DNA from: Actinomycetota bacterium
Lineage (GTDB): Bacteria; Actinomycetota; Acidimicrobiia; Acidimicrobiales; CADCSY01
Direction of reading: 5' to 3'
Assembly (NCBI GenBank): GCA_019347915.1
Contig: JAHWKL010000014.1
Span: 1 to 33,141, forward strand
DNA length: 33,141 nt
The translations under genes were made by a program, and so were the position numbers. The notes under the pieces were generated by a model. That model made no database searches. It was not told the origin of the DNA and saw nothing but the letters and a program-made list of their open reading frames with translations. Shown here piece after piece: positions 10,546 through 15,139 of this stretch. The stretch's first letter is position 1. Each line of letters begins with the position of its first letter.

Positions 10546-11427
10546 TCACACGGCGGCGTGGGGACGACCCCGCGCCACCCGCTGCACCCACGCCAGCACC
10601 GTGCGCACGGCCAGGGCCACGCCGATGACCGGCAGCCAGAGCCGCCGCGACCCGGTCGCGGTCTTGGTGGCGAAGCGCCACAGCGACCGGTGGTGGGCGG
10701 CGATCATGCGGTACGGGGTCTGGTCGGTGGAGCGGCCGATGGCGTGAGTGACCACCGCGGCCGGCTCGTAGCCCGTGCGCCAGCCCTTCTGGCGCAGCCG
10801 CCAGCACAGGTCGACGTCCTCCAGGTACATGAAGAAGCCCTCGTCGAACCCTCCCACCTCTTCCCAGGCGGTGCGGCGGGCGACCAGGTGCGTCCCGGCC
10901 ACCCAGTCGACGGCGGCGGGCCCGTCGTGGTCCCAGTCGAGCATGCGGTACCGGCGGCTGAACCGGTTGCCCGGCCACACGAAGTGGAGGAAGGCGTGGC
11001 CGGCGGCGTCGACCAGGTCGGGGAAGGTGCGGGCCGAGGGGTACAAGGTGCCGTCGGGCGTCTCGATCCGCGGGCCCACCACCGCCAGCTCCGGGTCACG
11101 CTCGAGCGCCTCGACCAGGGTCTTGGTCGAGCCCGGTTGCACGACCACGTCGGGGTTCATGACGGCGACGTAGGGCGTCGAGGTGCGGGTGACCCCCCGG
11201 TTGGCGCCGGCACCGAAGCCGACGTTGACCGGGAGGGCCAGCACGTCGACGCCGGGATCGTGCCGGCGGGCCGCCTCTGCGGATCCGTCGCCGGAGTCGT
11301 TGTCGACCACCACGATGTCCTCCACGCCGTCGGCCCGGAGGCTGTCGATGCACTGCAGCAGAAGGTCACGCACGTTGTAGCTGACGATCACCGCCGCCAC
11401 CGGAGCCGGGTGGCTTCCGCTCGTCAC
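10546..11427 (-). CDS. GT2 family glycosyltransferase (rhamnosyltransferase/WbbL-like)
   Basis: A 293-residue GT-A enzyme. [21 protein letters not shown] is the start of the nucleotide-sugar domain, and [11 protein letters not shown] and [12 protein letters not shown] follow in order. NPDVVV is the metal-binding acidic region. [20 protein letters not shown] is the acceptor-side motif typical of the WbbL/rhamnosyltransferase group, with the ED pair in the base position. A hydrophobic segment near the C-terminus ([19 protein letters not shown]) could associate with the membrane. GTG 11427 overlaps the stop of the intein-bearing decarboxylase gene as GTGA, making this the third gene of the ugd-UXS operon. 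Its donor might be a product of that pathway; the rhamnosyl label rests on family resemblance only. Confidence 0.85.
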
Positions 11428-13760
11428 GTCGCCGTTGCCCCCAGCCAGCAGGCGGTGCGTGCCAGGCCCTCCCGCAACGACACCTCCGGTTCCCAGCCGA
11501 GCACACGGCGGGCCAGGGCGATGTCGGGCCGGCGCTGCGTCGGGTCGTCGACGGGGAGGGGCTCGAACACGACCGACGACGAGGAGCCGGTCACCTCCAG
11601 GACGAGCTCGGCCAGCTCCGTGACGGTGTGCTCGACTGGGTTGCCGATGTTGACCGGGCCCACGTGGCCGGAGTCGAGCAGGGCGAGGAGCCCCCTGATC
11701 AGGTCGTCGACGTAGCAGAAGCTGCGGGTCTGGGTGCCGTCGCCGTAGACGGTGAGGGGCTTGCCCTCGAGCGCCTGGACCACGAAGTTGGCCACCACCC
11801 TGCCGTCGGCGGGGCGAATGCGAGGGCCGAACGTGTTGTGCGCCATGATGCCTACCCCAGCCCAGAAGTTCTCGCGGCCGGGAACGCTGAAGTCGTAGAC
11901 CATCGGCGTCGCTTCGATCTCATCGACGCGCTTCACCCTCGCCCAGATGAGGTCGCCGGTCCGGCGAGCGTTCAGCGCCTGATCCACCCCTCGGTCCCAC
12001 TCCAAGGGGCTCCAGGGCGCGACCCGCGCAAGGGTGAGGCGCCAGAACGGGTAGAGCCGGTCCCCGGTCTTGTGGCGCATCGTCGTCTCGTAGCGTCCCA
12101 CCGAGGGCACGAGGCCGAAGCGGGCCAGTGCCACGACGAGATCGTCCTTGAGGTCCTCCGAGGTGGTGGAGAACTCGTGGCGGATCCCCTCGGCAAGCTT
12201 CTTGCCCGAGTGGACGCCGTCACCCACTCGGTAGCCCTCGAGGAACCACTTGAGACGGGAAAGCGGCAGCCCGAGGACCCAGCCGGGGATTCGCTTCGCT
12301 CCGTCATCGAACCCGAGCCGATCGAGCAACATGAGCAAGAGGCGAGAGTGCACGAAGATGGCCGGCGCCGACGCGCCAAGGCGACCTTCCGATCGGCAGA
12401 CGTGAAGCCCGAGCTCTCGTTCGAAGATCTTCGTCGCTCGGTCAAGAGTGTCCTGGTCACAAGAGATCGTGACGTACGACGTCTTGGGCAGCGCCTCCTG
12501 CCGGCAACCCTCAGCCACGTACAGGCCCAGCAACCAGAGCATCTCGTCGCTCAACTCGATGATCTCTGGAAGCTCCGCCGAATGGCCCCTCACACGTCGC
12601 CGGACGCTCGCCCCCGGTGGGATGGGGATACCGAGCCTTCGGAGCACGGCCAGCGGCATCTGGTCGCGCTCCCGCATCCTGCGGATCTGGGTCCACACCA
12701 CGTTCCGCCAGACGTTCGACTCCGGCCGGCAGCCCTGGGCGATGGCGCCGAAGACCTCCCTGCGCCGCGACCACGCGAGCTCACCCAGGCCAGCCGCCCG
12801 CACGAAAAGGGTCCAGGGGTCGTTTCCGGCCCAGTCCCACACCTCGGCCATCCGAACGACCGCCCGGTCGCGTACCGGCACCTCGACCCTGCCGGCAACG
12901 GCGATGCAGTCACCGACCCGCAGCTCCCGTACCGGGCGGGGCTCAGGTCGCCCGTCCTCGCCTTCCACGAAGAGGCTGTGATCGCCGGTGACCTTGATGG
13001 TGCGTCCATACGCCGTCTGGACCTGGAAGCACCGGCCGGCGGGAGGATGTCCGATGAAGGCGGTGGCGTCGCTGACGCCGATCCGTCCTCCGGTGTCGAA
13101 GCTGGGCACGGAGAACCCGGTGAGGTCGATCCTCCCGCCGAGCCGTTCGGCCAGACGACCGGCCGGCTCGCGCCGCAGTTCGCACCCGTCGTCGTAGAGC
13201 ACCTGCTCGTCGGCGAGGATGGAGTTGAAAATGCGGGCGATGCGCACGTCGAGCCCGTGGGCCCGGTGGTAGGCCATGGCCATGGCCTCGCCGAAGCGCT
13301 TGGCCTCGTCGTAGACCCCCCGGGGGCCCACCGGGTTGACGTGGCCCCAGTACTCCTCGGGTTGCGGGTGGACCTGGGGATCGCCGTAGACCTCGCTGGT
13401 GGAGGCCAGCAGGTAGCGGGCGCCCTTGTCCTTGGCCAGGCCCAGGGTGTTGTGGGTGCCGAGGCTGCCGACCTTCAGGGTCTGGATGGGAAGCTCCAGG
13501 TAGTCCTTGGGCGAGGCCGGGCTGGCGAAGTGCAGAACGGCGTCGACCCTTCCCGGGACCCACACGTAGGCGCTCACGTCGTGGCGGACGAAGGTGAAGC
13601 CGTCGACGCCGAAGAGGTGCTCGATGTTGGACAGCCGACCGGTGGCCAGGTTGTCGATGGCCACCACCTCGTCACCCCGCTCGAGCAGGCGGTCACACAG
13701 GTGGGAGCCCAGGAACCCGGCTCCGCCGGTCACCACCACTCGCCGGCGACGCCCCGTCAC
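11424..13760 (-). CDS. UDP-glucuronate decarboxylase (UXS-type) precursor containing an intein
   Basis: A 778-residue precursor. Removing residues 180-642 leaves a 315-residue extein, the usual length of UDP-xylose synthase. Extein features are [11 protein letters not shown] (11-21), the UXS-typical [15 protein letters not shown] (77-91), [12 protein letters not shown], the catalytic dyad Tyr150/Lys154 (VYDEAKR), and [15 protein letters not shown] after the intein. The enzyme oxidatively decarboxylates UDP-glucuronate to UDP-xylose using bound NAD; its substrate is made by the adjacent upstream ugd. The intein splits the conserved RIFN/TFGPR block, normally continuous as RIFNTYGPR. GTG 13760 overlaps the ugd stop (GTGA), and the gene's stop overlaps the next glycosyltransferase start. 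Activity presumably requires protein splicing. A dTDP-glucose 4,6-dehydratase is a weaker alternative. Confidence 0.92.
11835..13223 (-). mobile_element. intein with LAGLIDADG homing endonuclease inside UXS gene
   Basis: The segment encodes residues 180-642 (463 aa) of the precursor. It begins with Ser180 (block [14 protein letters not shown]). Block B is VTGDHSLFV (about 257-265, with Thr and His). LAGLIDADG motifs are LLGLYVAEG (410-418, Glu417) and [10 protein letters not shown] (506-515, Asp514). Block F is [15 protein letters not shown] (621-635), and the end is block G, VGIMAHN, with penultimate His641 and Asn642. The +1 extein residue is Thr643. All residues needed for a class 1 mechanism and both endonuclease acids are present, so it may splice and home. 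Two sampled 60-base lines inside it count 58% and 53% G+C (12301-12360, 12421-12480), against 73% in an extein line (13321-13380), suggesting horizontal entry. Confidence 0.93.
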
Positions 13761-15052
13761 CGGCGCCCCAAGCCGGCGTAGTCGAAGCCGTGCCGGCGCA
13801 GCACCGGGGCCTCCAGCAGGTTGCGGGTGTCAACGACCCTCGGCGTCCGCATGACGGCGGCAACCTTGTCGAAGTCGACCCATCGGAACTCGTCCCACTC
13901 GGTGAGCAGGACCAGAACGTCGGCTTCGTCGCAGGCGGCGTAGGGGTCGGCGGCCACCTCGATGCCCTCCAGTTGGGGGGCGCCGCCGGCGGCGTGGTGC
14001 TCGACCGCCGGGTCGTAGGCGCGCACACGGGCCCCACGCCGGCGCAGACGCCGGATGACCTCGATGGCCGGGGAGTCCCGCAGGTCGTCGGTCCGGGCCT
14101 TGAACGTCAGGCCCCAGGCGGCCACCACCGTGCCGTCCAGCGAGCCCCCGGCCATGCCCTCCACCTTGTCGGCCATGCGCTCGTACTGCTCGTCGTTGAC
14201 GGCGATGACGCCTCGCAGGAGATCGAAGTCGTACCCGGCGTCCTCGGCGATGCGCACCATCGCCCGCGTGTCCTTGGGGAAGCACGAACCCCCCCAGCCG
14301 GGGCCGGGCCGGAGGAACTCGAACCCGATGCGCGGGTCGTACCCCATGCCCAGCACCACCTCGCGCACGTCGGCACCCACTGCTTCGCACACGTTGGCCA
14401 AGGCGTTGACGAAGCTGACCTTGGTGGCGAGAAAGGCGTTGGAGGCGTACTTGATGGTCTCCGCCGACGCCGGGTCGGTGATCACCAGCGGTGCCCGCAG
14501 GGCCTCGAACAGCGTGGCCACCCGCATGGCCGCGGCCTGGTCCTCGCTGCCGATGACGATGCGGTCGGGATGGAGGCAGTCGTGCACCGCCGAGCCCTCG
14601 CGAAGGAACTCGGGGTTGGACACCACGAACACGTCGTCCCGACCCAGGGCCCACTCCACCACCCGGGTGGAGCCCACCGGGACGGTCGACTTGTTGATGA
14701 CGATGCACTCCACCTGCAGTGCGGGAGCGATCTCCTCGACCGCCCGACGGAGGTAGGTGAGGTCGGCGGAACCGTCCTCGCCCTGGGGCGTGGGCACGCA
14801 CAAGAAGACGAACTCGGCCTCGGCCACGGCGGCGGCGGCCCCGAGGACGAACGACAGCCGGCCGGCGTGGAGGCCTTCGAGGACGAGGTCGTCGAGCCCC
14901 GCCTCCAGGATGGGCACCTCTCCCCGGCTGAGGCGCTCGACCTTCTCGGGCACCACGTCGGCGCACACGACCGTATGGCCGAGGTGGGCGAGGTAGGCGC
15001 CGGTGGTCAGGCCGACGTAGCCGGTGCCGATGACGGCGACAGTGGCGGTCAC
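13757..15052 (-). CDS. ugd: UDP-glucose 6-dehydrogenase
   Basis: A 431-residue enzyme that oxidises UDP-glucose to UDP-glucuronate in two NAD-dependent steps. The N-terminal Rossmann motif is VIGTGYVGL (7-15). [27 protein letters not shown] and [10 protein letters not shown] are the standard UDPGDH/MDH blocks. The catalytic cysteine is Cys257 in [10 protein letters not shown], preceded by [14 protein letters not shown]. Start choice: GTG 15052 gives the usual N-terminus and lies seven bases after a TAACGT box (leaderless layout). In-frame ATG 15091 would add 13 non-conserved residues but has a good GGGGAG six bases upstream, so it remains possible. It is the first gene of the ugd-UXS-GT2 operon, linked to UXS by a GTGA overlap, and supplies that enzyme's substrate. 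Confidence 0.93.
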
Positions 15053-15059
15053 CGGGAAC

Positions 15060-15065
15060 ACGTTA
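15060..15065 (-). promoter_or_regulatory. putative -10 box (TAACGT) of ugd operon
   Basis: TAACGT on the minus strand is followed by seven bases and then GTG 15052, which fits a leaderless transcript starting at the start codon. It competes with the ATG 15091/GGGGAG reading of the gene start. Confidence 0.4.
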
Positions 15066-15139
15066 GGCCGTGAGCGGGCGTCCGCCTCCATGGCCGCTCC
15101 CCGAGCGGGGCGGTGGGGCGGTCCGGTGCCGCCACGGCA

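Follow-up and report, generated by a model that had tools for sequence, protein, structure and literature searches.

The closest solved relative of the intein described here is PI-PkoII (PDB 2cw7/2cw8), which likewise joins a Hint domain, a middle region and a LAGLIDADG endonuclease in one intein, and which we take to be archaeal and to lie in another host protein. It was the best PDB match by sequence profile (E 2.6e-26) and the first by fold, tied with TliVMA, and its identity to our intein in the structural alignment was 25%. PI-PkoII, intein homing endonuclease II, comes from Thermococcus kodakarensis according to an excerpt of one paper (PMC6293099).

According to a section of a review, metabolic enzymes too can host inteins, which insert at functional sites that are conserved (PMC7765530). 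For UDP-glucose 6-dehydrogenase they are on record as the allele 'udp', in haloarchaea and others (PMC4071816, excerpt). These inteins, and the ugd inteins of the order studied here, resemble the intein in UDP-glucuronate decarboxylase (UXS) reported below in having a nucleotide-sugar enzyme as host, one that acts at the step before UXS, but they occupy a different gene and a different site, and their sequences are only distantly related to that of the UXS intein (E 1.2e-13 and 8.5e-13). Inteins of dCTP deaminase (dcd) were among the nearest non-UXS relatives found; that of cyanophage CL131 carries an HNH endonuclease, as stated in a passage of PMC6293099, in contrast to the LAGLIDADG endonuclease of the UXS intein. 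A word check of PMC5874633 found no sugar enzyme named, and no report of a UXS intein was found in the open-licence literature; an entry in a bacterial intein survey or intein database is possible. The UXS intein is a real and apparently intact allele, undescribed as far as that literature shows, and would extend the range of intein hosts to a nucleotide-sugar decarboxylase.

Interrupted uxs gene and its neighbors

We analyzed a 33,141-nucleotide stretch of DNA (the window) from an uncultured actinobacterium; all coordinates are positions in the window. The uxs gene lies on the minus strand between two other genes of the same orientation:

13757..15091, minus strand: ugd, UDP-glucose dehydrogenase (three Pfam UDPG_MGDP_dh domains)
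11424..13760, minus strand: UXS precursor with its intein, 778 aa, starting with GTG (open frame; Pfam Epimerase and Intein_splicing)
13224..13760, minus strand: N-extein of UXS, residues 1-179, ending RIFN (sequence and UXS alignment)
11835..13223, minus strand: intein, 463 aa, precursor residues 180-642, with Hint domain, helical middle region and LAGLIDADG endonuclease
11424..11834, minus strand: C-extein of UXS, residues 643-778, beginning TFGPR (Thr+1) and including the stop codon
10546..11427, minus strand: family 2 glycosyltransferase (Pfam Glycos_transf_2)

The ugd gene of the window is intein-free and overlaps uxs by 4 bases, and the glycosyltransferase gene overlaps the end of uxs by the same length, suggesting that uxs is probably transcribed with both neighbors in a single operon. 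No RNA families or tRNAs were found in the window.

The initial annotation had proposed a 463-residue insert at 11835-13223 between RIFN and TFGPR, whose excision would give a UXS of 315 residues. These coordinates are exactly those that we measured, and removal of the intein restored a 315-aa UXS. Computed masses are 86.2 kDa for the precursor, 51.9 kDa for the intein and 34.3 kDa for UXS. The top PDB matches of the joined UXS halves were four UXS1 chains (UDP-glucuronic acid decarboxylase 1; E 5.5e-107 to 5.1e-106), followed by a UDP-glucose 4-epimerase (E 2e-36). By sequence comparison, the host protein is an extended SDR nearest to known UXS, and its gene comes after ugd. An alignment with intact UXS, proposed as a check at the outset, indicated that the inserted region is not a normal UXS domain: the solved UXS 4gll has no insert at the intein site, the alignment running straight through, and the order's 30 top-scoring matches to the spliced UXS also cross the site uninterrupted. 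The site lies in a conserved stretch of UXS. We rejected the idea that it is the most conserved spot of the enzyme, as its 10-residue neighborhood ranks 72 of 299.

Splicing and endonuclease residues

To describe the intein we used a residue table of 14 complete UXS inteins, including that of the window; two inteins cut by contig ends (L021 and L059) were left out. The relevant features in the window are:

13221..13223, minus strand: Ser1, first splicing nucleophile, block A (Ser in 14/14 complete inteins)
12975..12989, minus strand: block B TGDHS, with intein T79 and H82 (residue table)
12507..12533, minus strand: LAGLIDADG motif 1, LLGLYVAEG, with catalytic Glu238 (precursor 417; residue table)
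12216..12245, minus strand: LAGLIDADG motif 2, with catalytic Asp335 (precursor 514; Pfam and residue table)
11835..11900, minus strand: region of blocks F and G ending AHN, with Asp444, Glu451, His462 and Asn463

Pfam Intein_splicing (PF14890) matched the window protein with 64.7 bits (cut-off 35.8) and was found in all 11 aligned inteins (E up to 0.01). Ser1, T79, H82, D444, N463 and Thr+1 are present in 14/14 complete inteins, and His462 in 13/14; a Thermoleophilaceae UXS intein (L019, 195-1478) has Lys at this penultimate position and lacks part of its middle region. A block-F His is usual in many inteins, but it is not universal. Glu451 replaces it in the window intein and Glu stands there in all 14 complete inteins, which counts against our best reading. 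PI-PkoII has Glu at the same position, and we therefore did not treat the block-F His as defining for class 1. With a Ser1 nucleophile, a terminal Asn463 and Thr+1 present and the block-F His absent, class 1 is a likely label only.

Pfam LAGLIDADG_3 scored 24.8 bits in the window protein (cut-off 22.5) and was found in 9 of the 11 aligned inteins (E up to 0.01). Both endonuclease acids are kept in 12/14 complete inteins; L008 has Arg and Glu in their place and L058 has Ala replacing the first Glu, which suggests decay of the endonuclease in these two relatives. All the residues named by the initial annotation, that is, Ser1, the block B Thr and His, the terminal His-Asn, Thr+1 and two LAGLIDADG motifs with Glu417 and Asp514 (intein 238 and 335), were found where expected, except that the terminal Asn, given as 462, is intein residue 463.

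An AlphaFold2 model of the window intein, built on the alignment of 11 inteins, had a mean pLDDT of 88.1. The closest solved structure was 2cw7, PI-PkoII, with a Foldseek E of 6.3e-28 and a VIA Z of 35.5 at an rmsd of 4.0 across 405 residues; the TliVMA inteins were tied in VIA Z at 35.2-35.4. Hint folds were among the structural matches, and residues 222-408 of the model aligned with I-DmoI (Z 15.8-16.1). Profile, predicted fold and site conservation thus agree with the original description of an intein in UXS whose homing endonuclease is apparently intact.

Related inteins share the insertion site

Searches of genomes for relatives of the intein covered the phylum Actinomycetota. Eight of 298 genomes of the order matched it (E up to 1e-10). 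The intein is in UXS in four of them, the window's own genome (G000) and G058, G079 and G143. The best matches in the other four lie in dCTP deaminase (G091), ugd (G127 and G205) and a GyrB-like frame (G135), of which the dCTP deaminase and GyrB were recognised by eye and ugd by tblastn. Profile searches gave hits in 8/396 genomes at the level of the phylum and 3/395 at that of the class, the window genome being counted in both, and contributed four loci (L056, L058, L059 and L060). A scan of genome_contigs (84,980 species by its description) with exact peptides of the window intein gave nine loci, of which eight are UXS inteins with actinobacterial titles. The ninth, a myxococcotal candidate (L022), was dropped as a chance match of 24 residues within an unrelated-looking 484-aa frame.

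After removal of duplicates (L053, L054, L055 and L057, equal to L015, L017, L018 and L020), 16 distinct UXS-intein loci were counted in Actinomycetota, with pairwise BLAST identity of at most 76.6%, the two cut by contig ends included. All share the insertion site wherever the boundary is on the contig: RIFN/S in 15/15 loci and [HK]N/T in 15/15.

Empty sites and probable mobility of the intein

A search of relatives for the RIFN/T site, suggested at the start, returned both states: the 16 occupied loci, that of the window among them, and many empty alleles. The spliced UXS was matched in 178 of the 298 order genomes (E up to 1e-60). A congener of the window organism (G136) has the same gene order and an uninterrupted UXS; against the spliced UXS of the window, its identity is 95% at the protein level and 92% at the DNA level. 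Each of the 10 other sampled genomes of the family, the congener included, has a single UXS match that crosses the site. One genus in which an occupied and an empty allele have exteins 95% identical, together with intact and altered endonucleases at one site, makes this a clean system.

We built an extein tree from 14 occupied and 30 empty loci (44 rows), the empties being the best-scoring 30 of the 178 matching genomes; L021 and L059 were excluded from the trees. Occupancy needs 8 changes on this tree, at least 4 of which are forced by branches with good support, and the empty congener groups with the window (SH-aLRT 95). Even so, occupied loci cluster more than they do when labels are shuffled (on average 12.1 changes; 0 and 3 of 500 shuffles gave so low a count), and vertical descent may account for some of the pattern. 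The topology tests were weak: two extein clades were not rejected by the intein data (p-AU 0.21 and 0.13), and the extein data rejected one intein clade (p 0.008), which had been picked after seeing the intein tree.

dN/dS was measured in one genus, not that of the window, with three intein-bearing species including L058, which has lost the first Glu. The ratio was 0.15-0.18 for the intein and 0.14-0.19 for its endonuclease part in 3/3 pairs; on these estimates the intein, endonuclease part included, is under purifying selection in that genus. Intein dS was 1.07-1.25, near saturation and about twice that of the extein (0.48-0.59), which could reflect repeated acquisition or else stronger codon bias in the extein. 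Mismatches beside the site gave no significant signal of co-conversion (14/120 vs 53/720, p 0.14).

A phage or plasmid vehicle was considered and rejected. The plasmids searched held no relative of the intein, an exact-peptide scan of viral contigs matched 2 stretches, neither of them a relative, and phages gave one weak match (24.3% identity over 52%). Thus, no vehicle was seen.

The G+C content is 67.8% in the intein and 70.6% in the extein, not 53-58% and 73% as had been reported from sampled segments. The lowest full 50-codon block of the intein has 60.7% G+C, and its last 13 codons 59.0%. GC3 is 85% in the intein and 94% in the extein, and is below that of the extein in 14/14 complete inteins; total G+C is above that of the own extein in 7/13 other complete inteins. 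Neither G+C nor GC3 of the intein against the extein carries a mark of very recent arrival, and we rejected low G+C as a sign of it, given the small difference in the window and the 7/13 inteins richer in G+C than their exteins. Recent acquisition, for which the initial annotation had argued from base composition, is still plausible on other grounds: since the sister site is empty in a syntenic congener with a 95% identical UXS, the simplest reading is that the window's lineage gained the intein, most likely by homing. More broadly, the UXS intein is a recurrent and probably mobile allele.

Proposed mechanism and alternative readings

Taken together, the anatomy, the shared and the empty sites, purifying selection in one genus and the predicted fold make it very probable that a full-length LAGLIDADG intein parasitises uxs, splicing, homing and spreading horizontally with occasional decay and loss; for splicing, cutting and the direction of transfer we draw on what is known of inteins. 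The Hint domain would fold within the precursor, which would then splice itself: an N-O acyl shift at Ser1, transfer to Thr+1, cyclisation of Asn463 and an acyl shift to an amide bond would free the 51.9 kDa intein and the 34.3 kDa UXS. The freed intein would act as a homing endonuclease and cut intein-less uxs near the RIFN/T codons, and repair of the cut gene would copy the intein across. The allele would persist through horizontal spread among Actinomycetota, the endonuclease decaying and the intein being lost now and then.

An intein that splices but whose endonuclease is inactive in this organism, vertically inherited and heading for loss, is an unlikely alternative for which the altered acids of L008 and L058 speak. 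Its presence in a single species of the family could reflect losses elsewhere, and occupancy is partly clustered. Yet both acids are intact in the window intein, the endonuclease part is constrained in the one genus measured, and vertical inheritance would need several losses, with 10/10 other sampled family genomes empty. It is scarcely credible, on the other hand, that the insert belongs to UXS itself, as a normal or an extended domain, or arose by chimeric assembly, and is not an intein. The assembly, whose 244 contigs include the window, is 86% complete with 4% contamination, but 15 other distinct loci have related inserts at the same codon, the insert has an intein profile and fold, and both 4gll and the 30 best order matches lack it.

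The intein could also be a domesticated regulator whose conditional splicing gates the supply of UDP-xylose and benefits the host. Because the site lies within the catalytic fold, the precursor probably has no activity, and splicing would in that case be required for UDP-xylose production, a gate that the initial annotation had proposed, taking the UXS activity as predicted. Conditional splicing is treated in part of a review (PMC7765530), and in the order inteins are found in the enzymes of two successive pathway steps. We nonetheless regard a regulatory role as very improbable: the intein is sporadic (4/298 order genomes) and the syntenic congener copy is empty, a pattern that a parasite fits better than a conserved switch. 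A wider proposal, that in this order inteins recurrently target both steps (ugd and uxs) of the branch leading from UDP-glucose through UDP-glucuronate to UDP-xylose, and that conditional splicing switches the supply of surface-glycan precursors post-translationally, is very improbable as well.

Inteins in ugd and other genes

An intein in ugd was matched in 10/298 order genomes (E up to 1e-40; L065-L069 among the loci), and two of these genomes belong to the family of the window. The 10 do not include any of the 4 genomes with a UXS intein; at such counts, chance predicts no overlap. In all five ugd-intein genomes that we opened, the intein splits ugd at nearly the same residue, and the uxs immediately downstream is uninterrupted. 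The two ugd inteins that were read have the form GGS/C...HN/C, with Cys1 and Cys+1. Two different inteins therefore use neighboring genes in the order, for consecutive steps of one pathway. That a nucleotide-sugar enzyme is an unusual host, as first supposed, holds only in part: inteins of UDP-glucose dehydrogenase, the preceding enzyme, are published (PMC4071816, excerpt) and present in the order, which makes UXS a less odd host. With ugd inteins just upstream elsewhere, the question arises of whether the presence of inteins in this pathway is due to chance, to conserved sequence or to tolerance of delayed maturation.

Other inteins were seen in the course of the searches. In the GyrB-like frame of G135 (L012, contig C62), an intein of LAGLIDADG type stands before TDADVDGSHIRTLL, the host being GyrB-like by eye. 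The genome of the window organism itself encodes a dCTP deaminase split by a LAGLIDADG intein (L062, contig C61, 58-2112, plus strand; IHS/S...SN/TAG by eye), whose Intein_splicing score of 35.7 bits is just below the Pfam cut-off of 35.8. Like the UXS intein it has Ser1 and Thr+1, by eye, but the host gene, dcd, differs; its identity to the UXS intein is 32% over residues 38-372. A DnaB helicase of 1289 aa in the same genome (L061, contig C198, 6662-10531, plus strand) has two Intein_splicing and two LAGLIDADG_3 matches, indicating two inteins.
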